Part shown: one piece after another, positions 559 through 16,662 of the stretch | How positions within the stretch are numbered: the first letter of the stretch is position 1 | Layout: each line of letters begins with the position of its first letter | Assembly (NCBI GenBank): GCA_029238255.1 | Contig: JAQWGK010000062.1 | Span: 1 to 33,769, forward strand | Direction of reading: 5' to 3' | From: Porticoccaceae bacterium | GTDB lineage: Bacteria > Pseudomonadota > Gammaproteobacteria > Pseudomonadales > Porticoccaceae | Length of the DNA stretch: 33,769 nt | Notes under the pieces: model-generated | Seen by the model: only the letters and a program-made list of their open reading frames with translations | What the model was told of the DNA's origin: nothing | The model's database searches: none | Position numbers and translations under genes: made by a program

Positions 559-1386
559 TTACTGAAACAATTTACGGGTAGATTCGCGATGATTTCTGCT
601 TACTTTGAGAGTTTGACCGTCAGATAGATGAACAAGGCTGCCGCGCTTCTGGCTTAATGATGTTGAGACCACTCTGGTGATATTAACCACGGTGGAGCGA
701 TGGATACGAACAAATAGATTGTCATCGAGTTTCTTCTGTAGGTCGAGTAGCGTACTGCGCATAATATGGGTTTCACCAAGCGCGTGAATACACATGTAAT
801 CCCCAGCGGCATCAATCCAATCTATATCTTCGAAGGGAATAAGCTTCACTGTCCCAGAATCACGAATTAGCAATTTTCTCTTGAGTCGCTCGGGCTGCTC
901 TTCGGCAAGATTCTCTTGCCCATCACCCGAATCCACAGAACCAGATTGGTCTTTATCCAAACGAATCGCAATATCATTAATGGCACCAATCAGCGGGGCT
1001 TTTAACACCTCCTGCTGGACTCTTTTACGCTCTACAGCGCGCTGCACTGCAACTGAAATACGCTCTGGATCAAAGGGTTTAAGCAGGTAGTCAACTGCAT
1101 GCATATCGAAAGCATCAACGGCGTATTGGTTATAAGCTGTAGCAAAAATTACCATCGGCATGGCATCAGACTGCAGTGCCTTAACCACTTCAAACCCATT
1201 GACCTGGGGCATCATAATATCGAGAAAAATCAGATCCGGTGCCATAGACATTGCAGAATCTATAGCTTCGCGACCATTCTTGCACTCGCCAATAATATCA
1301 ATATCAGCTATTTCAGTGGCGATAGAACGCAACAGGTCACGGGCAAGTGGCTCGTCATCAACGAGCAGAGTTCTCAGCTTCGACAT
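559..1386 (-). CDS. LytTR-family response regulator, copy 1
   Basis: A 275-residue two-component response regulator of the AlgR/LytR class. Residues 1-120 are a receiver domain with the acidic pair D10-D11, phospho-acceptor D56 (DLIFLDIMMP), T83 and K103 (LLKPFDPE). A linker of about 45 residues follows. Residues 170-275 form a LytTR DNA-binding domain, with IDWIDAAGDYMCIHA and FVRIHRSTVVN as hallmarks. It is a close paralogue of the regulator at 1795-2610, with near-identical receivers and ends and a divergent linker (SVDSGDGQENLAEEQ here). It should be phosphorylated by the LytS-type kinase at 2659-3819 and act as a transcription factor. The nearest downstream gene on its strand is the GH3 hydrolase. 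The ribosome-binding site before the ATG is weak. Confidence 0.93.
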   Translation of the reverse strand: MSKLRTLLVDDEPLARDLLRSIATEIADIDIIGECKNGREAIDSAMSMAPDLIFLDIMMPQVNGFEVVKALQSDAMPMVIFATAYNQYAVDAFDMHAVDYLLKPFDPERISVAVQRAVERKRVQQEVLKAPLIGAINDIAIRLDKDQSGSVDSGDGQENLAEEQPERLKRKLLIRDSGTVKLIPFEDIDWIDAAGDYMCIHALGETHIMRSTLLDLQKKLDDNLFVRIHRSTVVNITRVVSTSLSQKRGSLVHLSDGQTLKVSRNHRESTRKLFQ

Positions 1387-1438
1387 AATAATGCACGGTT
1401 ATTGGTTAGTAATTATTCTCAATAAGATTCTTGTACGC

Positions 1439-1453
1439 TTGGCGTTACGCCAA
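1439..1453. promoter_or_regulatory. 15-bp perfect palindrome upstream of LytTR copy 1
   Basis: TTGGCGT and ACGCCAA flank a single central base, about 53-67 bp upstream of the ATG at 1386. Size, symmetry and position suit a dimeric repressor or activator operator. There is no direct evidence of the protein that would bind it. Confidence 0.35.
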
Positions 1454-1570
1454 TGGTCCGGAGCCACCCTCTTTGAACCAAAATTACCGCGACTTGAAAA
1501 GCAGCCCTTTAGGCTTAACTTAAATAGTGATATTGGGTAATTAGAATCTATCGGTAGTTTTTTATTCTAA

Positions 1571-1616
1571 AAAGATCGATCTTTAAATTTCGGAGTTCCT
1601 CCGAAGAACGATCTTT
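1571..1616 (-). terminator. Nested hairpin, possible terminator of LytTR copy 2
   Basis: The outer arms AAAGATCG (1571-1578) and CGATCTTT (1609-1616) enclose a perfect inner stem TTCGGAG (1589-1595) / CTCCGAA (1599-1605) with a 3-nt loop. The left outer arm is also part of a 14-bp palindrome, AAAGATCGATCTTT (1571-1584), so an alternative fold exists. Read on the minus strand, the structure is followed by CTTTTTAGAATAAAAAA, a poor U-tract. It lies about 180 bp past the regulator stop. It could be a terminator, an mRNA processing structure or an element controlling RR1. Confidence 0.4.
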
Positions 1617-1685
1617 ACTAGCAACCTAATAAGCTGCTTTGCAAACTACTTTATAGCTAAATCTTTTCACGAGAGTGGACTTGGA

Positions 1686-1708
1686 GGAAGGTCAGATGCG
1701 ACCACTAG
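1686..1708. repeat. 23-bp repeat, copy 2
   Basis: Exact match to 504-526. It sits 87 bp past the end of the second LytTR gene, echoing the position of copy 1 past the first. Confidence 0.7.
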
Positions 1709-1794
1709 CTTACAAACTGAGATTAAAGGGAAATTAGTGAGATAAATGGGAGATTAAAAATAGGAATTAAACATATTAATCGCAAAAAATAAGG

Positions 1795-2610
1795 TTACTG
1801 AAATAACTTGCGAGTAGATTCCCGATAATTTCTACTGACTTTAAGGGTTTGACCCTCAGCCAGATGGAGCAGACTTCCGCCCTTCTGGATCGATGAAATA
1901 GAGACTACCCGAGCAATATTGACCACGGTTGAACGGTGAATGCGAACAAACAATTTATCATCCAGTTTCTTTAACAATTCACGTAAGGTACTGCGCACAA
2001 TATGGGTTTCACCCAACGCGTGAACACACATATAATCACCGGCAGCATCGACCCAGTCTATATCGTCAAAAGGAATCACTTTGACCACACCAGAATCGCG
2101 AATCAACAGCTTGCGCTTCATTCCCTCAGGGAGATTTTCTTCGCTTTCAACCGGCTCTTCGGAGTTTGGCTGATCCTTATCCAGACGCACAGCTATATCG
2201 TCAATAGCGCCAATAAGAGGCGTTTTAAGACCATCTTGCTGGGATTTATGCCTTTCTACTGCGCGCTGTACAGCCCTTAAAACACGCTCTGGATCAAAGG
2301 GTTTAAGCAGGTAATCAACGGCGTGAAGATCAAAGGCATCAATGGCGTACTGATTGTAGGCCGTGGCAAAAATCACCATCGGCATAATATCCGACTGCAA
2401 CGCCTTAACCACTTCAAAACCATTGACGTTGGGCATCTGAATATCGAGAAAGATAAGGTCCGGCGCCAACAGCATAGTGGACTCTATGGCTTCGCGACCA
2501 TTTTTGCATTCGCCAATAATTTCAATATCATCAATCTGGCTGACGATAGAACGCAATAAGTTCAGCGCCAGCGACTCATCATCAACCAGCAGAGTTCTCA
2601 GTTTTGACAT
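1795..2610 (-). CDS. LytTR-family response regulator, copy 2
   Basis: A 271-residue receiver-LytTR protein. The receiver has D10-D11, phospho-acceptor D56 (FLDIQMP), T83 and K103 (LLKPFDPERV). The C-terminal LytTR domain starts near residue 166 (KRKLLIRDSGVVKVIPF). It begins 48 bp after the kinase stop codon, so the kinase and this regulator are very probably one operon and this is the primary cognate partner. The linker (NSEEPVESEENLPEG) differs from copy 1, as do a few LytTR surface positions, so DNA targets or dimer contacts may have diverged. The ATG has only a weak Shine-Dalgarno, consistent with coupling to kinase translation. Confidence 0.94.
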   Translation of the reverse strand: MSKLRTLLVDDESLALNLLRSIVSQIDDIEIIGECKNGREAIESTMLLAPDLIFLDIQMPNVNGFEVVKALQSDIMPMVIFATAYNQYAIDAFDLHAVDYLLKPFDPERVLRAVQRAVERHKSQQDGLKTPLIGAIDDIAVRLDKDQPNSEEPVESEENLPEGMKRKLLIRDSGVVKVIPFDDIDWVDAAGDYMCVHALGETHIVRSTLRELLKKLDDKLFVRIHRSTVVNIARVVSISSIQKGGSLLHLAEGQTLKVSRNYRESTRKLFQ

Positions 2611-2658
2611 AACAGTCCATGGTTATTATTAAATATTTCTGATCTATTCATTACAGCC

Positions 2659-3819
2659 TTATTCACTATAGCCCTGCTGCGCCCGACTTTCAGCGGATTG
2701 TTTTTCCAAAGGCAGGCGAATAAATATCTTCAAGCCGCCCAAATCGCTAGTGCCTAATTGAAAAACATAGCGATCACCATAAAAAGTATCCAGTCGATCA
2801 ATGGTATTTTTCAAGCCAATACCAACACCAGCGGCCTTGTCGTTCTTCGACATCAATACCCCAGGGCCGGTGTCACTGACTTCAACCATAAGATAATCGC
2901 CATCAAGTTTTGCCAGAATACCAATTTCACCGCCATTTTCCATAGGCGCAATTGCGTATTTAATCGCATTCTCGACTAATGGCTGTAAAAGCAGACTGGG
3001 CACCTTTACCTCGTTTGCCGCTTCATCAATATCAAAATTTAGCTGCAGACGCTCACCAAATCGGGTCTGTTCAATATTCAGGTAGAGGCGCAGAGCGGCT
3101 AATTCTTCGGCGAGACTGACTCGCTGAATAGGATCACTCTCCAGAGAATAACGCAGGAAGTTGCTCAATTGAACAATCATAGTATTGGCGTTATCCGAAT
3201 GTTTTCCCTGTACCAATGAGGCAATGGCATTGAGGGTATTAAACAGAAAGTGCGGATTGAGCTGATAGCGCAACATCTTTAGCTGCGCCTCATGGGCTAT
3301 GGTCTCTGCCCTGCTGCGCTTAAGCTGTTCCTCTTTATTTTCGGCCTCAATGGTCAGCAGTGTTGCGTGCTCACTTTGCAGCAGTTGGTAATACTTAATA
3401 CCATGATAGAAGGCTGCCCAACACAGAAAGATAATGATCGAGGCAAATAACCAGCCACCAAAATCGCTCCATACTTCGGTCTCACCGGTCATCCACATAA
3501 ATACCGCGACCCGCATCACCGACCATATAACAGAGCAGATCAGTACTGCAGCCAGCGAGAGAAATAAACGCGGGAAAGGATTTTTATTCCACACCCGGTG
3601 AAATACAGGTCGCAGAGGCCAGGAGACAATAATACCAATCAGTGACTGAATCACTGTATGGGCAATATAGTCAAAGCTCTGCTGGTTGTACCACAGGGTT
3701 AAACTAAAATAAGTTATCAGCGAGAGACTAAACCAACCCACAAACTGCAACAGCAAGAACTGCATATCATTGTCTTGATACAACTTGGTTAGCGGGGCCG
3801 ATACTTTAGTTTTATTCAT
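2659..3819 (-). CDS. LytS/AlgZ-type membrane sensor histidine kinase
   Basis: A 386-residue kinase. Four hydrophobic segments (about residues 21-42, 51-70, 83-110, 119-140) form the membrane sensor, with very short loops and no periplasmic domain. A helical, charged segment (145-182) leads to the His-kinase core: QLNPHFLFNTLNAI with H190 as phospho-acceptor. The ATPase follows: N-box LLLQPLVENAIKYA (277-289), DTGPG (316-320) and GVGIGLKN (331-338). This is the His_kinase (PF06580) plus HATPase arrangement that pairs with LytTR regulators, and two such regulators follow on the same strand. With no extracytoplasmic sensor domain, the signal is probably sensed in the membrane or relayed by a partner. 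Confidence 0.93.
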   Translation of the reverse strand: MNKTKVSAPLTKLYQDNDMQFLLLQFVGWFSLSLITYFSLTLWYNQQSFDYIAHTVIQSLIGIIVSWPLRPVFHRVWNKNPFPRLFLSLAAVLICSVIWSVMRVAVFMWMTGETEVWSDFGGWLFASIIIFLCWAAFYHGIKYYQLLQSEHATLLTIEAENKEEQLKRSRAETIAHEAQLKMLRYQLNPHFLFNTLNAIASLVQGKHSDNANTMIVQLSNFLRYSLESDPIQRVSLAEELAALRLYLNIEQTRFGERLQLNFDIDEAANEVKVPSLLLQPLVENAIKYAIAPMENGGEIGILAKLDGDYLMVEVSDTGPGVLMSKNDKAAGVGIGLKNTIDRLDTFYGDRYVFQLGTSDLGGLKIFIRLPLEKQSAESRAQQGYSE

Positions 3820-4067
3820 AGGATTTTATAGTTGGCTTTGAGTTCAGTGCTGTTTATTGGGTGCTTTACGAGGGATCGACGGCAGTATAACAGCAAGGTT
3901 TCTCGAGGAAACCCCTTAGATAAATACCAGAGCGGGTTAAACCATTAATCTCACAACCTATAACAAGGGGAGTAAGGCAGTTATTTATTGATAGAATTTT
4001 GTTGTTTAATACTGAATACTTCCCACACAACAACCCAATAGCAGCAATCAAAGCATCTATTATCTCT

Positions 4068-4700
4068 ATGAAAAAACCACAGCCATTAGATAAACATTTA
4101 ATTTCCTTTATGGGAATAAATGCACTGCGCTCTAGCCATCCCGGGGTACGACAGTTAAAACGCCAGCAACAGGGCCACAGTGCCCATGGCAATAAAGTCT
4201 GGCGTTCAAGCTTTGTACTGATGGATTATCTCAGCAGCTGGGAAATTCCCGAGCGAGCTAAGGTATTGGATATAGGCTGTGGATGGGGTCTGGCGGGGAT
4301 TTATCTGGCAAAAAACTATCAGGCTCAGGTCACCGGTCTGGATATAGATGAAAAGGTACAGCCCTATCTCAACTTACAGGCTGAGATTAATCACTGTTTC
4401 ATTGAATTTACCGCTCGCAGTTTTCAATCTCTACAAAAAAGTGAATTGGCGAACTATCATACGCTGATGGGTACCGATATCTGTTTTTGGGATGAAATGA
4501 CCTCCCCCCTTTTTGACCTAATTGCTCTGGCACGCAGTGCCGGAACCGAGCAGATATTAATTGCCGATCCGGGCAGACCGCCATTTTGGGATTTAGCTGA
4601 ACGCTGTGTTGCTGAGCTTGGGGCGGAAATTATTACCCGCAGGATCTATGAGCCGTGGAAAACTGAAAAGTTTATTCTGGCAATCGGCGGTCGCGACTAA
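4068..4700 (+). CDS. Class I SAM-dependent methyltransferase
   Basis: The ATG at 4068 gives 210 residues. The frame is open from a TTG at 3999, but the extra N-terminus looks non-conserved, and neither start has a clear ribosome-binding site. Motif I is LDIGCGWGLAGIYLAKNY, followed by an acidic SAM-ribose position in VTGLDIDEKVQPYL. Later come GTDICFWDEM and a C-terminal ADPGRPPFWDLAE strand. The pattern recalls small protein or amine methyltransferases of the METTL/ETFB-lysine type, but the substrate cannot be read from sequence. It is the only plus-strand gene among minus-strand sugar-locus genes and may be unrelated to them. Confidence 0.75.
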   Translation: MKKPQPLDKHLISFMGINALRSSHPGVRQLKRQQQGHSAHGNKVWRSSFVLMDYLSSWEIPERAKVLDIGCGWGLAGIYLAKNYQAQVTGLDIDEKVQPYLNLQAEINHCFIEFTARSFQSLQKSELANYHTLMGTDICFWDEMTSPLFDLIALARSAGTEQILIADPGRPPFWDLAERCVAELGAEIITRRIYEPWKTEKFILAIGGRD

Positions 4701-4744
4701 CCACCACTCTGCTCCCTTCTATCTATCGCCTTTTTACAGGCAAA

Positions 4745-4774
4745 AAAAATGCCCTTTTTACAAAGGGCATTTTT
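4745..4774. terminator. Bidirectional rho-independent terminator
   Basis: AAAAATGCCCTTT (4745-4757) and AAAGGGCATTTTT (4762-4774) form a perfect 13-bp stem with a TTAC loop, flanked by A-runs on the left and T-runs on the right. It can stop both the methyltransferase (plus) and TonB receptor (minus) transcripts, which converge here. Confidence 0.9.
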
Positions 4775-4812
4775 CGTTTTACCTACACTGCTTTCATAAT
4801 ACTTTTTGTAAC

Positions 4813-7698
4813 TTAGAACGCCATGTTGAACTTCAAGCCGTAGTGACGTGGCTTGTAGAACGAACCGCGCATAAAGCCAGGACCACGATCGGCCCAGTTA
4901 CGAACAAGTTCGTTGCTTACGTTGCGTACATAGGCTTCAAACGCCCAGCGGTCTTCTTCATTGATCAGACGCAGAGCGAAGCTGCCAGTAGCAACTGCTG
5001 CTTGACCCGAGTGCAGAGCACCCTCATCGAAGTTACCCTTGTCAAAGAACATTTCATCAGTCCAGTTAACCGAGATATAGGGGCTTAGACGCAGACCATT
5101 GCTCAGGAACCAGTTGTGCTCGTAGTTAACAGTAGCTGAGTACTTTGGAGACCATGGCATAGCATTGCCTACAAAGCTGGTCCAACGACCCTCATCACCA
5201 TTAGCGTTAACGGTTCTTTCAGGACAGTTAGTCAGACCCAGAAGTGCTCTCTCAAGACAGTACCAACCGTCCTGTACATCTTCGAGATCACGGATTTCAG
5301 AATCCAACCATGCAACCCAACCAGTAACTCGGCCACCGTAGTAAGGGGCCCAATCAAATTCAATCTCAGCACCGATGTTACGGGTCTTACCAATATTCTG
5401 AGTAATCAGAGTACCGATATCACGACCTACAACAACACACTGAACGGGGTCTGGTGCTTCTTCGCCTTCAGCAAGCTCAACGACTTCCTGATTTGAACAG
5501 TCAACCTGACGGTTTTCAGTATCGATATAAGTGTCAGGAACTGCGATCTCTTCGCCACTGAAGCCAACGATTGCATAGAAAGTATCCTGCAGGTTGGTGT
5601 TATCCAGCATAAAGATGTTACCCAGAATATTCAGGCGACCGTCGAGCCAAGTGCTCTTGATACCCAGTTCATAAGTAATGTTTTCTTCTGGATCGTAGTC
5701 GAAAGTATCAACGATATTACAGTCACAGATATCAACGGCGTCGCCGAAACCACCGGACTTGTAGCCAGTACCGATTGAGCCGTAGACAAAGATGTCGTCA
5801 CTTACCAGATAGTCGAAACCAACTTTCCAGGTAACCTTGCTCCAATCACCTTTGTGGCTGTTATCTGAATACTGCAGACGCTCAAGGAAACCATCGCCCA
5901 GAGTACCCATATCAGTAGTCAAAACGTCCGACTGATAGAGATCAGCGGCGGAAGTCTGGATACCGAATTTTGTCCATGCTTCATAATCAAATGAAGGGCC
6001 ACTTACGCCGGGAACAAAAGCGGGATCGTAGAGACCGATATTTGGCTGACGGTAGCCAGCAGTGATGTAGTTTCTACCACCAATATCTTCTTTGGCATCA
6101 TAGGTATAGCGAGCGCCGAATGTAGTATTAAGCTTTTCGTTGACCTTGTAATCAAACTGGGCAAATACCGCAGCTGACTCAACAATACGCTCAGGCTGAA
6201 CAAATGACTGAGCCAGTGGCAAGACGATGCCACAACAGAAAGCGTCTTCAACATCAAAACGGATTTCGTTGTTTTCCTGCATCATAAACAGGCCAGTGAT
6301 CCACTGTAAGTCAGAATCAGAAGTCGACTTCAGCTGCAATTCTGCAACCACAGATCGGTAGTCTGAGTAGTTAGTCGTCAACGAAAGATCGTTAAATGGC
6401 TGCATAGCATTATCTTCGTAGCCCAGAGACTGAAGCAATGCCAGGTCGTTTACCAGGTTTGGACATTCAACCATAGTACCGTTACCGCCTTCACAACCTA
6501 CTGGAGCTGCACCAGCTGACCACCAGGTACGCATAAGGCCGTAAGCTGGGTGATCTGGATCAGCGTATACAACAGACGCATCGTGCTCCTGTGAACGCTG
6601 CTGACGAGAGAATCCAAGACGACCTTCAAAGAGAACATCTTCGTTAATATCCCAAGTCAGGACACCACGAATACCAACCATGTTCATATCCATCTTGCCG
6701 GGAACGTTTACATTAACGTCCCACTGATCGTGGTCACATTCAAAGAAGGTACCCTCAGCTTTAGCACAGTCCTTTAGACCGAGCGTGCCAGGTGAGTTAT
6801 CTTGAAAGTAGTCTGCAACCAGATCGAGGCTGATATCGTTATTTGGCTCGAAGCGCATACCCAGACGGGCACCTTTACGATCGACAGAACCATAGGATTC
6901 GCTTGCACTGAAAGGCAGAGGATTGCCATCAGCATCCTTTTTCAGACGACGCTGGTCAACATTGGGAATACCATCAGCGGCGATATCGCCGGAACCAATA
7001 GTTCCATCACCATTGACGTCCCATTCGAGGTCGAATGTGTCTGGCATCTGGTTGTACCAGCTGTCAGCCTGATCGACAAAGAAGCTAGCGCGCATGGCGA
7101 TTTCATTGTTAATTGGCTGGTTAAACCAACCTTTAACCGCTTGCTGGTTGTACTTGCCAATCTCAACTTCGATCTTACCTTCCTGCTGATCAAAGTTAGG
7201 ACGAGCACTGATTACGTTAACGCTACCAGCAGTCGAGTTACGACCAAACAGTGTGCCCTGTGGGCCACGGCTGATTTCTACACGCTCTACGTCATACATA
7301 AGAGCCAGACCAGCCTGTGGGCGTGGTGAGTAGAGTCCGTCAAAGTGCATAGCAACCGTAGGGTCACCAATTTCAGTGAAGTTGTTCGAAGACAGACCAC
7401 GAACGACTACCTGAACACCGGAGTCACTAGGTGACAGTGCGATTTGCATATTTGGAACCATATCACCGATATCAAGCAGGTTTTTAACACCGGCATCATC
7501 GATTGCTTCCTGTGAGAATGCAGATACAGCGATCGCTGTCTCCATCAGTGATGTCTCACGTTTTGTTGCTGTAACAATAACCTCGTCAAGCGCTTCAGCG
7601 GCCCGCTCCTCTTGCGCAGAAACGTAGCCGGATGTAAGACCCGACAACGCGACTGAAAGCGCGAGAGTTGACCGAGAAATATTTTTAAATTTATACAT
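4813..7698 (-). CDS. TonB-dependent outer-membrane receptor
   Basis: A 961-residue receptor. A signal peptide ends near VSAQ (residues 26-29). A TonB-box-like LDEVIVTATKRETSL (37-51) follows, then a plug domain with VERVEISRGPQGTLFGRNS (137-155). The remainder is a 22-strand beta-barrel rich in aromatic/Asp/Asn strands and ends in a terminal Phe. Such proteins import ligands such as oligosaccharides, siderophores or cofactors using TonB energy. There is no ferric-siderophore gene nearby; the linked GH3 enzyme and glucan-domain lipoprotein point to oligosaccharides. An insert at residues 227-238 (DVNGDGTIGSGD) is a canonical EF-hand/dockerin calcium loop. It follows the repeat lipoprotein on the same strand with a 114-bp gap containing a hairpin. 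Confidence 0.92.
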   Translation of the reverse strand: MYKFKNISRSTLALSVALSGLTSGYVSAQEERAAEALDEVIVTATKRETSLMETAIAVSAFSQEAIDDAGVKNLLDIGDMVPNMQIALSPSDSGVQVVVRGLSSNNFTEIGDPTVAMHFDGLYSPRPQAGLALMYDVERVEISRGPQGTLFGRNSTAGSVNVISARPNFDQQEGKIEVEIGKYNQQAVKGWFNQPINNEIAMRASFFVDQADSWYNQMPDTFDLEWDVNGDGTIGSGDIAADGIPNVDQRRLKKDADGNPLPFSASESYGSVDRKGARLGMRFEPNNDISLDLVADYFQDNSPGTLGLKDCAKAEGTFFECDHDQWDVNVNVPGKMDMNMVGIRGVLTWDINEDVLFEGRLGFSRQQRSQEHDASVVYADPDHPAYGLMRTWWSAGAAPVGCEGGNGTMVECPNLVNDLALLQSLGYEDNAMQPFNDLSLTTNYSDYRSVVAELQLKSTSDSDLQWITGLFMMQENNEIRFDVEDAFCCGIVLPLAQSFVQPERIVESAAVFAQFDYKVNEKLNTTFGARYTYDAKEDIGGRNYITAGYRQPNIGLYDPAFVPGVSGPSFDYEAWTKFGIQTSAADLYQSDVLTTDMGTLGDGFLERLQYSDNSHKGDWSKVTWKVGFDYLVSDDIFVYGSIGTGYKSGGFGDAVDICDCNIVDTFDYDPEENITYELGIKSTWLDGRLNILGNIFMLDNTNLQDTFYAIVGFSGEEIAVPDTYIDTENRQVDCSNQEVVELAEGEEAPDPVQCVVVGRDIGTLITQNIGKTRNIGAEIEFDWAPYYGGRVTGWVAWLDSEIRDLEDVQDGWYCLERALLGLTNCPERTVNANGDEGRWTSFVGNAMPWSPKYSATVNYEHNWFLSNGLRLSPYISVNWTDEMFFDKGNFDEGALHSGQAAVATGSFALRLINEEDRWAFEAYVRNVSNELVRNWADRGPGFMRGSFYKPRHYGLKFNMAF

Positions 7699-7746
7699 TG
7701 TTATCTCTTCCCCGTAGCTAAACTAATAATTTAATCTTTTTTTATA

Positions 7747-7782
7747 ATTTCACCCGATCGCTATAAGAGCGTCGGGTGAAAT
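7747..7782 (-). other. Strong hairpin between lipoprotein and receptor genes
   Basis: ATTTCACCCGA (7747-7757) pairs with TCGGGTGAAAT (7772-7782), with an inner CGCT/AGCG stem and an ATAAG loop. Neither side has a U-tract in the correct direction: minus-strand reading is followed by TATAAAAAAAG. It may therefore be an mRNA-stabilising or processing structure rather than an efficient terminator, adjusting lipoprotein versus receptor expression. Confidence 0.6.
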
Positions 7783-9816
7783 AAAATCTTTCAAACACGA
7801 TAAGCGTGCAATTTACTGCCAGCGAACATCGTCAATCTGGTAGACAAGACCTGCGCCTTGATTGACATCTGGAAAGAGAATAAACGGAGCAGTTACAGCC
7901 GTTAAATCAACTCCACCGAACGCAGTCACTGGCACTGTAAAGGTCTGCCAAAATTCACTATCAGTTGGAGTGACATCAACAGGAGGATGATTACTGCCAG
8001 CAGACTTAGTGATTAAGTTAAAACCAACACCCGCGTCTATATTCAGAATTTTTATATCGAATGAGAGCTCAGTAAAAGCAGACACATCTACTGATGTATC
8101 AGTGTTTTCAATAACTAGTACCGCGTGGCCGGCATTATCAGAATAGGAGATCTGTAAAACATCTCCGCGCTGATCATCAGCAACTGTCGCCTGAGTAATT
8201 TCATCACAGGTACCACAGGCTGCAAAGCTCATAGAAGCATTACCGCCCCACTCAGTAGTAACAGCTGCTTCGTTAAGAACCTCAATGCCGGGGCTTGTAG
8301 GCGCTTCATAAGTAGCTTCTTCAGGAAGACCAGTGCTACCACCGTCATGGGTGACAACAATATCTTTAACCATCACCGGTGAATCATTCTCAACCACGTA
8401 CATCAGGAAAGACTCGTAGGTATTGGCTGAATCCTGGGCAGGAATAGCGACCGTATATTCAGTCTCTGCTTCACCACTGATCAGGACATAATCCAGATTG
8501 AACGATGGCTCAACATCCGGATGAGGTAGACGCTCAAAGCGGAAGTAGATATTGGTCGCAACGCCGTCAGCTGGAATTGCAGCTGTAAAGGTAATGCTGC
8601 CAGGATTGACAAAGGTAAACGGATACACATCAGTATTGAGGTTAGCAAAGCCGGCCCATACTTCTGACCCTGCAGGGAAGCTATAGGTGCTAGCCGCAAG
8701 CGCTGCACCACCAAAAGACCCAGTCATATCAACAACATCAGAAGGCTCTTCGTCAGTACCACCGTCGGTAGCGCCATCGGTAGCGCCGCCATCAGTAGAA
8801 CCGCCGTCGGTAGTGCCACCGTCAGTAGATCCGCCATCGGTAGTGCCACCGTCAGTAGAACCGCCACCTGCAACACGATCACCATCGGTGCTGCCACTGT
8901 CATCAGTGACAACAATATCTTTTACCATCACTGGAGAATCTTGCTCAACCACATACATCAGGAACGATGAGTAGGTATTTGCCGAATCCTGAGCAGGAAT
9001 GGTTACGGTATATTCCAGTTCAGCTTCACCGCTGATTACAACCGCATCAAGGTTAAAGGATGGATCAACATCCGGGTGAGGCAGACGCTCAAAGCGGAAG
9101 TAGACGCTGGTATCAGTGCCACCATTTGGAACCGCTGCAGTAAAGGTAATAGTGCCACCGTTAACAAAGGTAAACGGATAAAGGTCAAAGTTAAGGTTGG
9201 CGTAACCAGCCCATACTTCTGCACCTGCAGGGTAGGTAAACAGGTTATCTTCAACCAGTGCACCACCAAAACCTTCGATCATTTCAACAGGGCCAGCGCT
9301 AGTGCTACCGTCAGTGCTTCCACCATCAGTAGTGCCGCCGTCGGTTGAACCACCATCGGTAGTTCCGCCATCAGTAGTGCCACCGTCAGTAGTACCGCCA
9401 TCGCTAGAACCACCACCGGTACCGCCATCTGTGCTGCCACCGTCATCAGTGACAACAATGTCTTTTACCATCACTGGAGAATCTTGCTCAACCACATACA
9501 TCAGGAATGATGAGTAGGTATTGGCAGAATCCTGAGCAGGGATAGTCACTGTGTACTGCTGTTCAGCTTCACCGCTGATCACAACCGCATCAAGGTTAAA
9601 GGACGGATCAACATCCGGATGAGGCAGACGCTCAAAGCGGAAGTAAACGCTAGTATCAGTACCACCATTAGGAACAGCTGCAGTAAAGGTCACTGAACCG
9701 CCGTTGGCAAAGGTGAACGGATAAATATCTTCATTCAGGTTAGCAAAGCCAGCCCATACTTCTGAGCCTGCTGGGTAGGTAAAGGTAGTGCCGTCAACCA
9801 GTGCACCACCAAAGCC

Positions 9817-9819
9817 TTA
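9817..9819 (-). other. In-frame TAA splitting the repeat lipoprotein
   Basis: On the minus strand the codons are GTT GAA ATG ATT TAA GGC TTT GGT GGT. Copy 3 reads the same protein with GAA in place of TAA, and copy 1 has VEMVEGFGG. One G-to-T change explains it. Both flanking segments are in the same frame and keep perfect repeat structure. Confidence 0.95.
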
Positions 9820-9834
9820 AATCATTTCAACATT

Positions 9835-9951
9835 ACCAGCGCTGCTGCTACCGTCAGTGCTTCCACCATCAGTAGTTCCACCATCAGTGCTTCCGCCGTC
9901 AGATGAACCGCCATCAGTAGTTCCACCATCGGTGCCGCCTGTGGTGCCGTT
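9835..9951 (-). repeat. 15-bp tandem repeat encoding (S/T)(S/T)DGG linker, second linker
   Basis: Linker between domain copies 1 and 2: about six TDGG/SDGG units encoded by a 15-nt minisatellite. Comparable linkers lie at about 10351-10458, 9295-9441 and 8743-8898; the last is interrupted by GDRVAGGG. Unit number differs between linkers, as expected from replication slippage. Confidence 0.85.
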
Positions 9952-11069
9952 ATCATCAGTCACAACAATATCTTTTACCATTACCGGAGAATCTTGCTCA
10001 ACCACATACATCAGGAATGATGAGTAGGTATTGGCAGAATCCTGAGCAGGAATAGACAGCGTGTACTGCTGTTCAGCTTCACCACTGATCACAACCGCTT
10101 CAAGGTTAAAGGATGGTTCAACATCCGGGTGAGGTAGGCGTTCAAATCGGAAGTAAACGCTAGTATCACTTCCACCATTAGGAACAGCTGCAGTAAAGGT
10201 AATTGAACCGCCACCAGCAAAGCTAAAGGGATAGACATCTTCATTCAGATTGGCAAAACCGGCCCAAACTTCTGAACCTGCGGGGAAGGTATAGGTATTG
10301 CCATCAACCAGCGCGCCACCAAAACCTTCAACCATTTCAATAGCAGCAGCTGGAGTAGAACCACCGTCTGTAGAACCGCCATCGGAAGAACCGCCATCGC
10401 TAGATCCGCCGTCAGACGAACCACCGTCTGAAGATCCGCCATCGGTAGAACCACCACCATTGCCCGTGCCACAACCCTCGGCACAGTAATAGATAGCGCT
10501 CTCATCCGTAGTGGCTGAAACATCAGCGCCAGGATTAGTATTTAGATCCACATAAGAGATGCTAAAAGTAACAACACCGTCGGCATCGCCTTCTGTCATT
10601 ACTCGTGAGGCTGTCCAAGAGGTGCCTGCACCTTTGACTGAATCTGCAGCCATGCCATTAATCATTACTGTTGGAGCAATAATCGCTTCATCAGCAGTAA
10701 TATTAATTTGGAAGGTACCACCAAGAACCACATCGTTACGCAGAGGTGCATCAGCATCCTGCACTGTAACTTCTGTAAGAGATGGTGATACATAATCATT
10801 TGAATCTGGATTATCGTATCCACCACTACAGGCCGACAGAATTATTGAAAATAAAAGTGCCGAAACTGCACCGAAATGATTAGCTTGGAAAAAACCAGCA
10901 ACGCCAGTCGTTACTTGCGAACGCATAAATCCCCCTGGATTAATTTGATATTCTATTTTTGAGCTTTATTTTTAGACATGCTCGAACCCCGATTGTCCCG
11001 TGCCTGAGTAGACAGAACCAGAACTTTACGGCGAACAGCCACTTATATGCGGTGAATTGGTTAATTGTT

Positions 11070-11100
11070 CAACGTTTGAGCGATGAAATGCCCGTTAAAC
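11070..11100. promoter_or_regulatory. Candidate regulator-binding direct repeats upstream of the lipoprotein
   Basis: AACGTTTGA (from 11071) and CCCGTTAAA (from 11091) share a CGTT core 20 bp apart, about 145-175 bp upstream of the lipoprotein ATG. Pairs of GTT-containing 9-mers two helical turns apart are the usual LytTR site layout. The match to consensus is partial. TCAACGTTTGAG here also resembles TCAACGTTGAG at 350-360, just before the GH3 gene. Confidence 0.25.
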
Positions 11101-11136
11101 CGGAACTTTAGTGCAATTGGAGCCTGACGAGGGGGA

Positions 11137-11457
11137 CTATTTTGCCTTGCTGCCGCCAAGACAGTTAGGGGATTCGGGGGCAACAGCATTCTTCTCAGCC
11201 CATTCTGAAATGGTGTAAGTATGCAGCGCCAGAGCGTGAATTGGGCCGGCCAGATCTTCCGCTAACAGTCGATAAATTGACTGATGGCGCTGAACTAAAC
11301 GCTGACCCTGAAACTGATCACAGACAATTACCAACTTAAAGTGACTCTCCGACCCTTCAGGCACCGAATGCATAAAACTCTCATTGGTGACCTGAAGAAA
11401 TTGTGCCTCAAAAAAAGCACTGAGCTTATCGGTAATGGAGCGCTCAACGGGCCCCAT
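11137..11457 (-). CDS. bolA: BolA family transcriptional/iron-sulfur regulator
   Basis: 106 residues from ATG 11457, one base after the oadB stop (TAAgATG), so translation is probably coupled. A longer frame to 11475 would overlap oadB and adds nothing conserved. It matches E. coli BolA closely in length and content: ESFMHSVPEGSESHFKLVIV, RLVQRHQSIYRLLAED, IHALALHTYTISEW. The conserved His and the RH and HALALHTYT motifs support a class I BolA, which binds DNA in stress and shape control and cooperates with monothiol glutaredoxins in iron-sulfur handling. Its place as last gene of an oxaloacetate decarboxylase operon is unusual. Confidence 0.93.
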   Translation of the reverse strand: MGPVERSITDKLSAFFEAQFLQVTNESFMHSVPEGSESHFKLVIVCDQFQGQRLVQRHQSIYRLLAEDLAGPIHALALHTYTISEWAEKNAVAPESPNCLGGSKAK

Positions 11458-11458
11458 C

Positions 11459-12631
11459 TTACATACCACTGACAAGATTAATCATCACACCAGCGGCGAC
11501 CGCAGAGCCGATTACACCAGCAACATTGGGACCCATGGCATGCATTAGCAGGAAGTTTTGTGGATTTGCATCCAGTCCGACCTTATTGGCAACTCGCGCC
11601 GCCATAGGGACAGCAGACACCCCTGCCGCGCCGATCAGCGGGTTGACCTTGTGTTTGGCCATGGTGTTCATCAGCTTGGCCATCAACACGCCAGAGGCAG
11701 TACCAATACAGAAAGCCACCGCACCCAGCGCCAGAATACCCATAGTTTCCGGGTTGAGGAACTTTTCGGCACTCATCTTTGAACCCACACCCAAACCGAG
11801 GAAGATAGTGACAATATTGATCAGCGCATTTTGCGTCGTATCGCTTAGACGATTGACCACACCACATTCGCGCATCAAATTACCGAAACAGAACATGCCG
11901 AGTAATGGCGCCGCATCGGGAAGCAGAAAGGCAACCAGAACCAGTAGCGCTAGAGGAAATACAATGCGCTCAGCTTTGGTCACTGGACGCAGCTGTTCCA
12001 TCTTAATTTCTCGCTCCGCCGGCGTGGTCAGTGCACGCATAATCGGTGGCTGAATAATTGGCACCAGAGCCATATAGGAATAGGCCGCCACCGCAATTGC
12101 GCCGAGTAGATCCGGGGCTAACTTACTGGTCACAAAAATAGCCGTTGGACCATCGGCACCACCGATAATACCGATCGAAGCCGCTTCGCGAATACTGAAA
12201 TCGAGGATACCAAAGTGCCCCAGTGCAACAGCGCCGATAACGGTCGTAAAGATACCGACCTGAGCAGCAGCACCTAGCAGCAGAGTCTTGGGGTTAGCTA
12301 GCAGTGGACCAAAATCGGTCATCGAGCCAACACCCATAAAGATAATCAATGGAAACAGGCCAGTTTCAATACCGGCGTGATAGATATAATAGAGCAGCCC
12401 GCCGGGGCTCTCCATATGACCCATGGCATCATAGATTGGCGCTGCCTCAAAGCCAGCTCCGGGAATATTGACCAAAATTGTACCAAAGCCAATTGGCACC
12501 AAAAGCAGCGGTTCAAAACCTTTGCTGATAGCCAAAAACAGCAGAACCAGACCCACAGTCATCATAATCATCTGACCGAGTTGCATCTGGGCAAGGCCAG
12601 AACTGGCCCATAAACTGATTAAATTTTCCAT
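11459..12631 (-). CDS. oadB: Oxaloacetate decarboxylase, sodium-pump beta subunit
   Basis: 390-residue, highly hydrophobic integral membrane protein. Family hallmarks are visible: [17 protein letters not shown] near the N-terminus, [17 protein letters not shown] containing the conserved Asp of the sodium path, and the C-terminal [18 protein letters not shown]. It decarboxylates carboxybiotin carried by OadA and uses the energy to export Na+. AAGGAG precedes the ATG, and the gene starts 13 bp after oadA. Methylmalonyl-CoA decarboxylase beta subunits are related, but the OadA partner settles the call. Confidence 0.95.
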
Positions 12632-12644
12632 ACTCAGCGACTCC

Positions 12645-14432
12645 TTAAGCCAGGGTTACCAAAACATCACCGACTTTCACGCTGTCGCCGTTTTTCGCTC
12701 TTACTTCAACAATTTGACCCGCCGCTGGCGCACTTACCGAAGTCTCCATCTTCATGGCTTCGAGAATCGCAATACTTTCACCTTCAGCAACCTGCTGACC
12801 GGGCTGAACCAGCATCTTCACCACTGTACCTGCCAGTGGCGCAACAATTGGCTCACCGCCAGTAGCGGCAGCGGCGCTCGGTGCGGCGCTGGCAGCATTG
12901 CCGGCACCGGCAATCGCGCTAACGTCACCACCATCGGTGACGGCAACGGTGTAGGAGCGACCCTCAACCTCAACCGTGTAAATCTCTTCACCGGCATCAT
13001 TGGTCTGCACTTTGGACTTGCCGGTAGGCACAGGCTCAAAGGCATCCGGGTTATTTTTATTCTGTAAAAACTTGAGTCCAACCTGAGGGAACAGAGAATA
13101 GGTCAGTACATCGTCAACCTGCCCTTCACCACTGCACAGCTCAAAGCCATGTTCAGCGGACAAACCCTCTAGCTCCAAGGTCAGAGCTTCAAGTTCTGGC
13201 TCGAGGTTATCGGCTGGGCGACAGGTAATCGCCTCTTCGCCCTCATCCAAAACTCGCGACTGTAACTCAACATTAACTGGCGCCGGTGTGGCACCGTACT
13301 CTCCACGCAAGACGCCAGAAGTCTCTTTGGTGATCGACTTATAACGCTCACCGGTCAATACATTCAATACCGCCTGGCTGCCAACAATCTGGGAGGTTGG
13401 GGTTACCAGCGGGATAAAACCGAGGTCTTCACGAACCTTGGGGATTTCGGCAAGTACATCATCGAGACGATCTTCCGCGCCCTGCTGGCGCAACTGAGAT
13501 TCCATATTGGTCAACATACCACCGGGAACCTGAGCCACCAGAATCCGTGAATCTACACCGCGCAGTGAACCTTCGAACTCGGAATATTTTTTACGTACTT
13601 CTCTAAAGTAAGCGGCAATCTCTTCAAGCTTATTAATATTTAAGCCGGAATCACGCTCGGTGCCTTTAAAGATTGAGACCACTGACTCAGTCGCCGAGTG
13701 ACCATAGGTCATCGACATTGACGAGATAGCGGTATCCACATTATCGATACCAGCTTCCACGCACTTCAGAATGGTGCTTGTAGAGAGTCCGGTTGTTGCA
13801 TGACAGTGCAACTGCAGCGGAATAGATACCGCAGCTTTTAATTTAGTCACCAGCTCAAAGCCGGCATAGGGAGTCAGCAGACCGGCCATATCTTTAATAC
13901 AGATAGAGTCCGCGCCGGCATCTTCAAGCTGACGACCCAGATCAACCCAGCGATCAATAGTGTGAACCGGGCTCACGGTGTAAGAGATTGTGCCCTGGGC
14001 GTGCTTGCCAACCTGTTTGACCGCACGCAGTGCAGTGGTTAGGTTGCGCATATCGTTCATCGCATCGAAAACACGGAACACATCAATACCGTTGATAGCA
14101 GCGCGCTCGACAAACTTCTCGACCACATCATCCGCATAGTGACGGTAGCCTAGAATATTCTGACCACGGAAAAGCATCTGCTGCGGGGTATTTGGCATGG
14201 CTTTTTTAATCTCGCGGATACGATCCCAGGGATCTTCGCCGAGAAAACGAATACAGGAATCAAATGTAGCGCCACCCCAGGACTCCATAGACCAGTAACC
14301 GATCTCATCGAGTTTTGCTGCAATCGGCAGCATGTCGTCAATCCGCATACGGGTTGCAAACAGTGATTGATGGGCGTCGCGCAATACTACTTCTGTAATG
14401 CCTAGGGCGGCAGTTTTCGAGGGCATATTCAT
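12645..14432 (-). CDS. oadA: Oxaloacetate decarboxylase alpha subunit (biotin carboxyltransferase)
   Basis: 595 residues. The N-terminal carboxyltransferase TIM barrel shows [45 protein letters not shown] and [10 protein letters not shown], the last holding metal-ligand histidines. A conserved central region ([15 protein letters not shown]) follows. An Ala/Pro-rich hinge near 505-520 precedes a biotinyl domain with EAMKMET, biotinylated Lys at about 561. It transfers CO2 from oxaloacetate to biotin, giving pyruvate. Complete length for the family. The ATG at 14432 has an in-frame ATG two codons on; neither has a strong Shine-Dalgarno. Confidence 0.96.
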
Positions 14433-14470
14433 GTCCGTTTAGTAAATTCCAGTGAAGTTATTATTTTTAA

Positions 14471-14707
14471 CTATTTACGATGCTGGTCTATTGCAGCCTG
14501 TATCACCTTGGCAATTCTTGGCTCAACAGCCTGCGGAGTGCTAGTTAGCACGGGAGCAGCAGGAGCCAATTCAGTCTCAACAACCAGTTTATTGACAACC
14601 GATGACATCAGAGTAGTAATACCAACCAACAGGGTAAGAAAAGCAAAAACCGTGCCCATACCATAAAGCATTAAGTCCAAGCCCTGTGTAACAAGTGTTG
14701 ATTCCAT
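14471..14707 (-). CDS. oadG: Oxaloacetate decarboxylase gamma subunit
   Basis: 78 residues from ATG 14707 (MESTLVTQGLDLMLYGMG). One transmembrane helix (VFAFLTLLVGITTLMSSVV) is followed by a Pro/Ala-rich cytoplasmic tail, the standard OadG plan for anchoring OadA to OadB. The frame is open to 14842, but the extra 45 residues are unlike OadG, so the shorter start is preferred. First gene of oadG-A-B-bolA; the operon promoter should lie in 14708-14878, shared with divergent argS. Confidence 0.85.
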   Translation of the reverse strand: MESTLVTQGLDLMLYGMGTVFAFLTLLVGITTLMSSVVNKLVVETELAPAAPVLTSTPQAVEPRIAKVIQAAIDQHRK

Positions 14708-14878
14708 TAGTATTCCAAGATAATCAGTGATTTTATAAATATAAAAGGCCGTTTTTAGGCCATAGCCCAAAACTATATCAATAAGCGGATTTTTTTCCAA
14801 GTATGGCTTTGCTTTCAGTACCAGTAAATCTACAATCCGCACTCTTATTTAAGCCTAATTTCAAGGACAACCATCACC

Positions 14879-16603
14879 ATGCGAATCAAAGAGCTTCTCA
14901 ACCAGCGTTTCTCCGCCGCCATGCAGGCCGCAGGAATCCCTAACGAATGCTCTCCAGCTCTGGCCCTTAGCGGCAAACCGCAATTTGGTGATTATCAGGC
15001 TAACGGTGCCATGGGCGCCGCGAAACGTTTAAAGACCAATCCTCGCGATCTGGCGACAAAAATTTTAGAAAACCTCGACCTTGAGGGCATCGCTGACAAA
15101 CTGGAAATCGCCGGCCCCGGATTTATTAATATTTATCTGAGCAGTAAATTTCTCGCCAGCGCGGTTGCCGATAACGCACCAAAATCGAGCAATAACAATC
15201 CGCAGACCATCGTCGTGGACTACTCCTCCCCCAACCTCGCCAAAGAAATGCACGTCGGTCATCTGCGCTCGACCATTATTGGCGATGCAGTGGCACGAGT
15301 ACTGGAGTATCAGGGACATAAGGTTGTTCGCCAAAATCATATGGGCGACTGGGGCACACAGTTTGGAATGTTAATCGCCGAACTGGAACTGCAACTTAGC
15401 GAAGGCGAACAGGCCGAGCTGGCCCTCAATGATCTCGAAGTGTTTTACCAGCAATCAAAAAAGCATTTTGATGAAGACCCCGAGTTTGCCGACACCGCCC
15501 GAGCCTATGTGGTTAAGCTTCAGTCTGGGGATCAGCACTGTCGCACTCTCTGGCAGAAGTTTATTCAGGTCTCAGTGGCGCACAATCTGGACATATATAA
15601 GCAGCTTAATGTTGGCCTCAACGAAGCCCATATTATGCCCGAGAGCGCTTACAACGATGATCTGCAAAATGTTCTCGACGATCTGACTAACAAGGGACTG
15701 GCTGTAGAGAGCGACGGCGCCAAAGTTGTGTTTCTCGAAGAGCTGGCCGATAAAAATGGCGACCCCTCGGTAATGATTGTGCAGAAATCCGGCGGCGGTT
15801 TCCTCTACGCCACCTCCGATCTGGCGGCCATGCGCTACCGGGTTAATACGCTCGAAGCCGACCGTATACTCTTCTATATCGACGCACGCCAATCACTGCA
15901 TATGAAACAGGTGTTCGCCGCCGCTCGCAAAGCTGGCTATGCACCTGAAACCGTCGGTCTTGAACACCACCCGTTCGGCACCATGATGGGCAAAGATGGC
16001 AGACCCTTTAAAACGCGCAGTGGCGGCACCGTAAAACTGGCCGACCTGTTGGTTGAAGCGGTTGAACGTGCCGAGCAACTATTGCGCGATAAAAACACCG
16101 ACCTCAGCGACGACGCAATAAAAATTATCGCCCGCAAAGTCGGTATAGGCGCCATCAAATATGCCGACCTGAGTAAAACCCGCACCAACGACTATATTTT
16201 TGACTGGGACGCCATGATGTCTTTCGAAGGCAACACCGCCCCCTACCTGCAGTACGCCTACACGCGTATTCGCAGTATCTTCCGCAAAGCGCAGATAGAT
16301 CCGCAGAGCTTTAAGGCCGAAATCAATATTGTTGAGCCACAGGAAAAAGCACTGGCGATGAAACTGCTTCAGTTTGAAGAAATTATTGATCAGGTTGCCA
16401 GCGAAGGTTATCCGCATATTCTCTGCAACTATGTCTATGAACTGGCCAGTGCCTTTATGTCCTTTTACGAGCACTGCCCAATCCTCAAAGATGAGATTGA
16501 CGAAGCGACGAAAAACAGCCGCCTGCAACTTAGCAAGCAGACATCAGAAGCTATAGCTCAGGGACTCGACCTGCTGGGTATTGAAGTTATGGAAAAAATG
16601 TAA
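14879..16603 (+). CDS. argS: Arginyl-tRNA synthetase
   Basis: 574 residues, the normal ArgS length. The N-terminal Add-1 domain has [13 protein letters not shown]. The class I HIGH signature is HVGH at 125-128 within [17 protein letters not shown]. The KMSKS-equivalent region reads [18 protein letters not shown], and a DALR anticodon-binding domain is C-terminal. It charges tRNA-Arg. The coding sequence is intact and divergent from the oad operon. The aminopeptidase gene follows after 59 bp on the same strand. Confidence 0.98.
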
Positions 16604-16662
16604 CCCTTGATGCCGGCAGCCAGTTAAACGTCCCAACTGAAATAACCATAGGACTACCCCTG

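Follow-up and report, generated by a model that had tools for sequence, protein, structure and literature searches.

The window, by which we mean the whole 33,769-nt stretch analysed here, is contig C62 of genome G000, a 2.2-Mb draft in 79 contigs that is 98.3% complete. On its minus strand lie, in this order, oadA, oadB, a lipoprotein gene, a gene for a TonB-dependent receptor, a histidine kinase gene and two genes for LytTR regulators (Table 1). The nearest relatives found are the MAGs X_MB111 (OX044363.1, henceforth G018) and P_MB232 (henceforth G017), both of which align collinearly and in one piece, G018 over window positions 1638-16605 and G017 over 4101-16611. G000 may belong to the SAR92 clade and come from a marine habitat. 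Within the lipoprotein gene, a TAA at 9817-9819 interrupts a single frame running from 10926 to 7813, leaving 369 open codons ahead of it and 667 after it. Translation across the TAA keeps all four repeats in register, and both points agree with a preliminary description of this DNA made from the letters alone. The truncated lipoprotein with one repeat copy that this description envisaged is indeed what the 369-codon open frame would encode; the LSAC lipobox of its lipoprotein signal was recognized by eye in the translation. Over the first 120 bases of the gene (10807-10926, minus strand), the window and G018 do not differ even at silent sites, and G017 is nearly identical.

Table 1. Positions of the features discussed in the text, in window coordinates.
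Feature	Position	Strand	Remarks
In-frame TAA in repeat 2	9817..9819	-	absent from the G018 and G017 orthologues
369-aa open frame	9817..10926	-	signal peptide with LSAC lipobox, N-terminal domain, Gly-rich linker, repeat 1, linker
667 codons behind the stop	7813..9816	-	rest of repeat 2, repeats 3 and 4, C-terminal domain
Repeat domain 1	9952..10341	-	130 aa
Repeat domain 2	9442..9831	-	the stop is its fifth codon
Repeat domain 3	8899..9288	-	
Repeat domain 4	8344..8733	-	
G018-like tract	8732..9830		6 substitutions and one 15-nt length difference; in-gene flanks ~87% identical
TonB-dependent receptor	4813..7698	-	intact; downstream of the lipoprotein gene
Intergenic stretch	7699..7812	-	hairpin kept in three genomes
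Direct repeat, 21-nt spacing	11029..11056	-	upstream of the lipoprotein gene; conserved

At the repeat column occupied by the stop, repeats 1-4 of the window carry the codons GAA, TAA, GAA and GGG, compared with GAA, GAA, GAA and GCT in G018 and GAA, GAA, GAA and GGG in G017. The earlier statement that the sister repeats have Glu at this place is therefore correct for two of the three sisters (GAA) and wrong for the fourth repeat, which has Gly (GGG); the differing base had been put at 9818, a coordinate off by one within the codon. Comparison with orthologues in close relatives, proposed as a check, bore the observation out: at the same place in G018 the gene is one uninterrupted ORF of 1030 aa, and the stop is absent from both G018 and G017. 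Although G017 lacks the stop, its lipoprotein gene is broken by two one-base insertions. Together with three breaks in its GH81 gene (L032 10698-14451), which is split into four frames, these are the clear frame breaks of G017 in long ORFs across two collinear 21-kb stretches, and they are likely sequencing errors. The idea that G017 represents a second natural knock-out was set aside because the three further frame-breaking gaps in its GH81 gene resemble what unpolished long reads might give. Breaks also occur in G018, where one TonB receptor is split at L031:5306, a small gap lies close to the beginning of the receptor adjoining the lipoprotein (L029:13300) and the second LytTR gene is shortened.

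Neither piece of the window gene has a Pfam match above cut-off. The C-terminal domain gave a sub-threshold match to Exop_C (21.7 bits against a cut-off of 26.1), the SusD Pfam model matched neither piece at E values up to 0.01, and a profile search of solved structures with the repeat, at E values up to 1, returned 10 weak matches (best E 0.045), none convincingly related. With neither a Pfam match above cut-off nor a convincing solved relative, the assignment of glucan binding rests on the company that the domain keeps. ORFs of G000 that contain GH81, GH16 and GH5/CBM6 domains also carry the repeat domain, as do two more G000 loci with no recognized enzyme domain (L033 and L035), the paralogue repeats being 52-83% identical to repeat 1; in G018, the domain occurs in a GH81 ORF and in the ORF preceding GH81. 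Unlike the GH81, GH16 and GH5/CBM6 ORFs of G000, the lipoprotein has no recognized catalytic domain. Surface glycan-binding lipoproteins (SGBP, SusD-like) belong to the polysaccharide loci of Bacteroidota. The window gene resembles them in its lipoprotein signal, its tandem putative carbohydrate-binding domains and its TonB-dependent receptor neighbour, and differs from them in having no SusD Pfam match, in a host genome related to Pseudomonadales, and in showing no glycoside hydrolase in a scan of ten window proteins. In North Sea Gammaproteobacteria, according to PMC8371827, predicted laminarin clusters hold GH3, GH16, GH17, GH30 and occasionally GH5 and GH81, and other TonB transporters replace the SusCD pair. 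Based on these clusters and on the enzyme ORFs that share the repeat, our best guess from sequence is that the lipoprotein is a beta-glucan-binding surface protein, with lipid anchoring, surface position and glucan binding all predicted; it would probably help the cell to retain algal sugars. The 'glucan domain' label of the preliminary description has thus gained support from the domain's presence in glycoside hydrolase ORFs.

Across the genus, 27 of 56 searched genomes have a match to the 369-aa piece. We read 23 loci (the window, L029, L030 and L042-L061), 22 of which have oadB beside the lipoprotein start, and the N-terminal part was found downstream of oadB across the genus. Nine of the 22 oadB-linked loci hold a single frame to its stop in the available sequence, nine run off the contig inside the gene, one contains an N run and three are interrupted or reduced, namely the G000 stop, the G017 gene with its two insertions, and G024. 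This gene accordingly often breaks assemblies in the genus. As a further broken locus, G033 was rejected because an N run lies inside its gene. The nine frames with a visible end, taken as they read, span 773 to 1661 aa, and across the genus the repeats differ in kind; G011 has a single recognized repeat copy in a 1255-aa frame. In G024 (L059 3800-4140), the lipoprotein match extends only up to residue 56, and the upstream site is kept.

The TonB receptor was found at five of the 23 loci (the window, G018, G017, G011 and the second locus of G023); it did not turn up at the remaining 18, of which many are short. Folded as a whole, the 114 bases between lipoprotein and receptor reach -27.1 kcal/mol (z -2.5); no terminator-like site came up in the scan of 7699..7812. 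A polar effect of the stop on the receptor is possible, if hypothetical. Beyond the receptor, positions 559-3819 (minus strand) encode a histidine kinase (PF06580) and two LytTR response regulators that are 77% alike; matches to the kinase occur at nine of the 23 loci. An RNA element was considered as well and rejected, as no Rfam model scored at or above its gathering threshold in the window. Upstream of the lipoprotein gene, the direct repeat is present at all 22 oadB-linked loci and absent at the one other locus (at most 5 mismatches allowed, at most 3 in 21). Eight whole genomes, seven of which had contributed to the alignment that gave the pattern, yielded nine matches, eight of them at the lipoprotein gene, and a reversed control gave none. 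The direct repeat may be a candidate site of the neighbouring LytTR regulators, and it presumably resembles BtsR sites. The BtsR motif itself is not given in the available portions of PMC5552118 and PMC10653868.

Comparison with G018 places the stop in or at the border of a tract that is almost the same in both genomes. From 9830 to 8732, only six substitutions occur in 1084 aligned bases, compared with 254 in 2009 elsewhere in the gene. This tract is the longest six-substitution span in the collinear alignment of 15,374 columns (1107, the next being 396), and the longest such span in 277 kb aligned on contig C55 is 625, as counted in blastn pieces of at least 1000 bases, so that spans cut at piece ends are missed. 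Silent divergence from G018 follows the same outline, with dS at 0.43 before the stop, 0.43 behind the tract and 0.016 inside it. Given this near-identity to G018, repeats 2-3 were probably exchanged between the lineages, and recently so, or strains were merged in the assembly, which would look the same. Recombination at the repeats had been considered possible on account of their high mutual identity and finds support in the 1.1-kb tract, which points to between-lineage exchange. The stop is the outermost of the six tract differences, 12 bases from the tract edge; it may therefore postdate the exchange or sit just outside the exchanged tract.

For the parts of the gene outside the tract, the comparison of window with G018 gives a dN/dS of 0.137 ahead of the stop and of 0.157 past the tract. 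When changes were assigned to branches by polarization with G017, which left 18 sites unpolarized before the stop, 12 behind the tract and 1 within it, the window branch showed silent-to-replacement counts of 46:25 before the stop, 41:20 behind the tract and 1:2 in the tract, the last counting the stop and one tract-edge site. The corresponding counts for the G018 branch are 24:17, 18:25 and 3:0. On this coarse test, the window branch behind the stop has no sign of decay; the 18:25 of the G018 branch behind the tract suggests that the ratio is noisy or that constraint is weak there. The stop looks young, and the comparison shows apparent purifying selection on the longer form on both sides of the stop.

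The cleanliness of the assembly was assessed in two ways. A codon-usage scan for in-frame ORF pairs in 25 stretches of G000 (472,321 bases, the window included and L036, which overlaps L077, left out) gave 10 pairs. Seven of these are ordinary neighbours, in which an ATG follows the stop at a distance of 1-14 codons, and two others are short frames of 66-133 codons; the lipoprotein pair is the sole one with long coding frames on both sides, its first ATG lying 105 codons behind the stop. A second long in-frame split was thus not found in 472 kb of G000. When 12 G018 ORFs were compared with the window, 11 matched, and the one match with a stop inside it was the lipoprotein gene. On 300 kb of C55, 164 of 171 G018 ORFs had an orthologue, one of which has stops in its best match. 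The doubtful case is a 311-aa G018 frame, interrupted in its G000 match at residues 2 and 65. Its beginning coincides with part of another ORF, and G000 still has an open frame of 243 aa; we tentatively read this as a start that was placed too far upstream. Seven C55 matches cover less than 90% of the length, six because they are cut at stretch borders and one because of a gap inside it. These results speak for a real mutation, but they cover unique genes more than repeat genes.

Several explanations of the stop have to be weighed against this evidence. The one we prefer, and hold to be moderately probable, is an ordinary recent nonsense mutation carried by the source population. It is the best supported of the three options offered earlier, which were a fresh pseudogene, a sequencing or assembly error, and a truncated product, on the strength of an uninterrupted G018 gene, a sense codon in both near relatives, the absence of decay behind the stop and a nearly clean remainder of the sampled assembly. 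We thus infer that the stop is present in the organism and not only in the assembly. That the gene is in reality unbroken, with the stop arising from a base error or from two co-occurring strains merged at a repeat, strikes us as rather unlikely, though it has several points in its favour. The gene is repetitive and the genome a 79-contig draft, many oadB-linked loci end inside the gene or, in one case, contain N, and the stop sits on the border of the longest G018-like tract found, a place where a mixture of strains could lead an assembler astray. G-to-T changes are, moreover, a known type of library damage. Against an error of this kind, the change is a substitution and not an indel, and the sampled assembly holds no further long split in frame, and of the 164 orthologues a single one is doubtful. 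Furthermore, a k-mer assembly junction, if the method was such, invents no new words, and the stop would then have to be in the reads.

A different reading takes the shortening as functional, with a working one-repeat lipoprotein whose N-terminal module is kept while binding modules are lost, gained or swapped. Consistent with this are the N-terminal part and upstream site retained across the genus, the wide range of lengths and the varied kinds of repeat, the minimal match in G024, which has kept the upstream site, and the apparent exchange of repeats 2-3 between lineages. We nevertheless consider it improbable, as the longer form appears to be under purifying selection on both sides of the stop, none of the nine frames with a visible end falls below 773 aa, and even the single-repeat gene of G011 sits in a long frame. 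Programmed readthrough or a reassigned TAA, either of which would yield the full protein, agrees with the preserved frame and register and is hardly credible. The two nearest relatives have a sense codon at this place, so the stop is not conserved, and TAA separates seven of the nine other scanned ORF pairs, which indicates that it ends ordinary frames in G000. This explanation was rejected.

If the nonsense mutation is real, its consequences can be outlined. The gene would encode a four-repeat lipoprotein with probable beta-glucan-binding domains, next to a TonB-dependent receptor, and a recent nonsense mutation would have arisen in repeat 2 in the population behind the assembly. Translation would then stop after 369 codons, and the resulting lipoprotein would comprise the signal peptide, the N-terminal domain and a single repeat out of four. 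Loss of the remaining repeats and the C-terminal domain would be expected to weaken binding of long glucans. An internal restart at the next listed start (GTG, frame 9693-7813) was discounted: its product would have no signal peptide, which makes a lipoprotein from this start unlikely. The case resembles recent bacterial nonsense pseudogenes in its one stop, its lack of further decay and the open frame in a close relative, and it differs from them in that the stop lies in or at the edge of a near-identical inter-lineage tract inside a repeat gene.

A broader interpretation, which we regard as distinctly unlikely, is that this is a diversity locus of the genus at which signal, N-terminal module and upstream control site are kept while repeats are swapped and short alleles circulate, the stop being one of these. 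Should it be true, such diversity would perhaps be driven by phages or changing glycans. A single broken gene in a draft genome matters little; the case shows that, for repeat-rich genes of uncultured bacteria, reads should be consulted ahead of any claim of lost function. Beyond the stop itself, the finding points to a locus that combines module exchange with a conserved upstream site.
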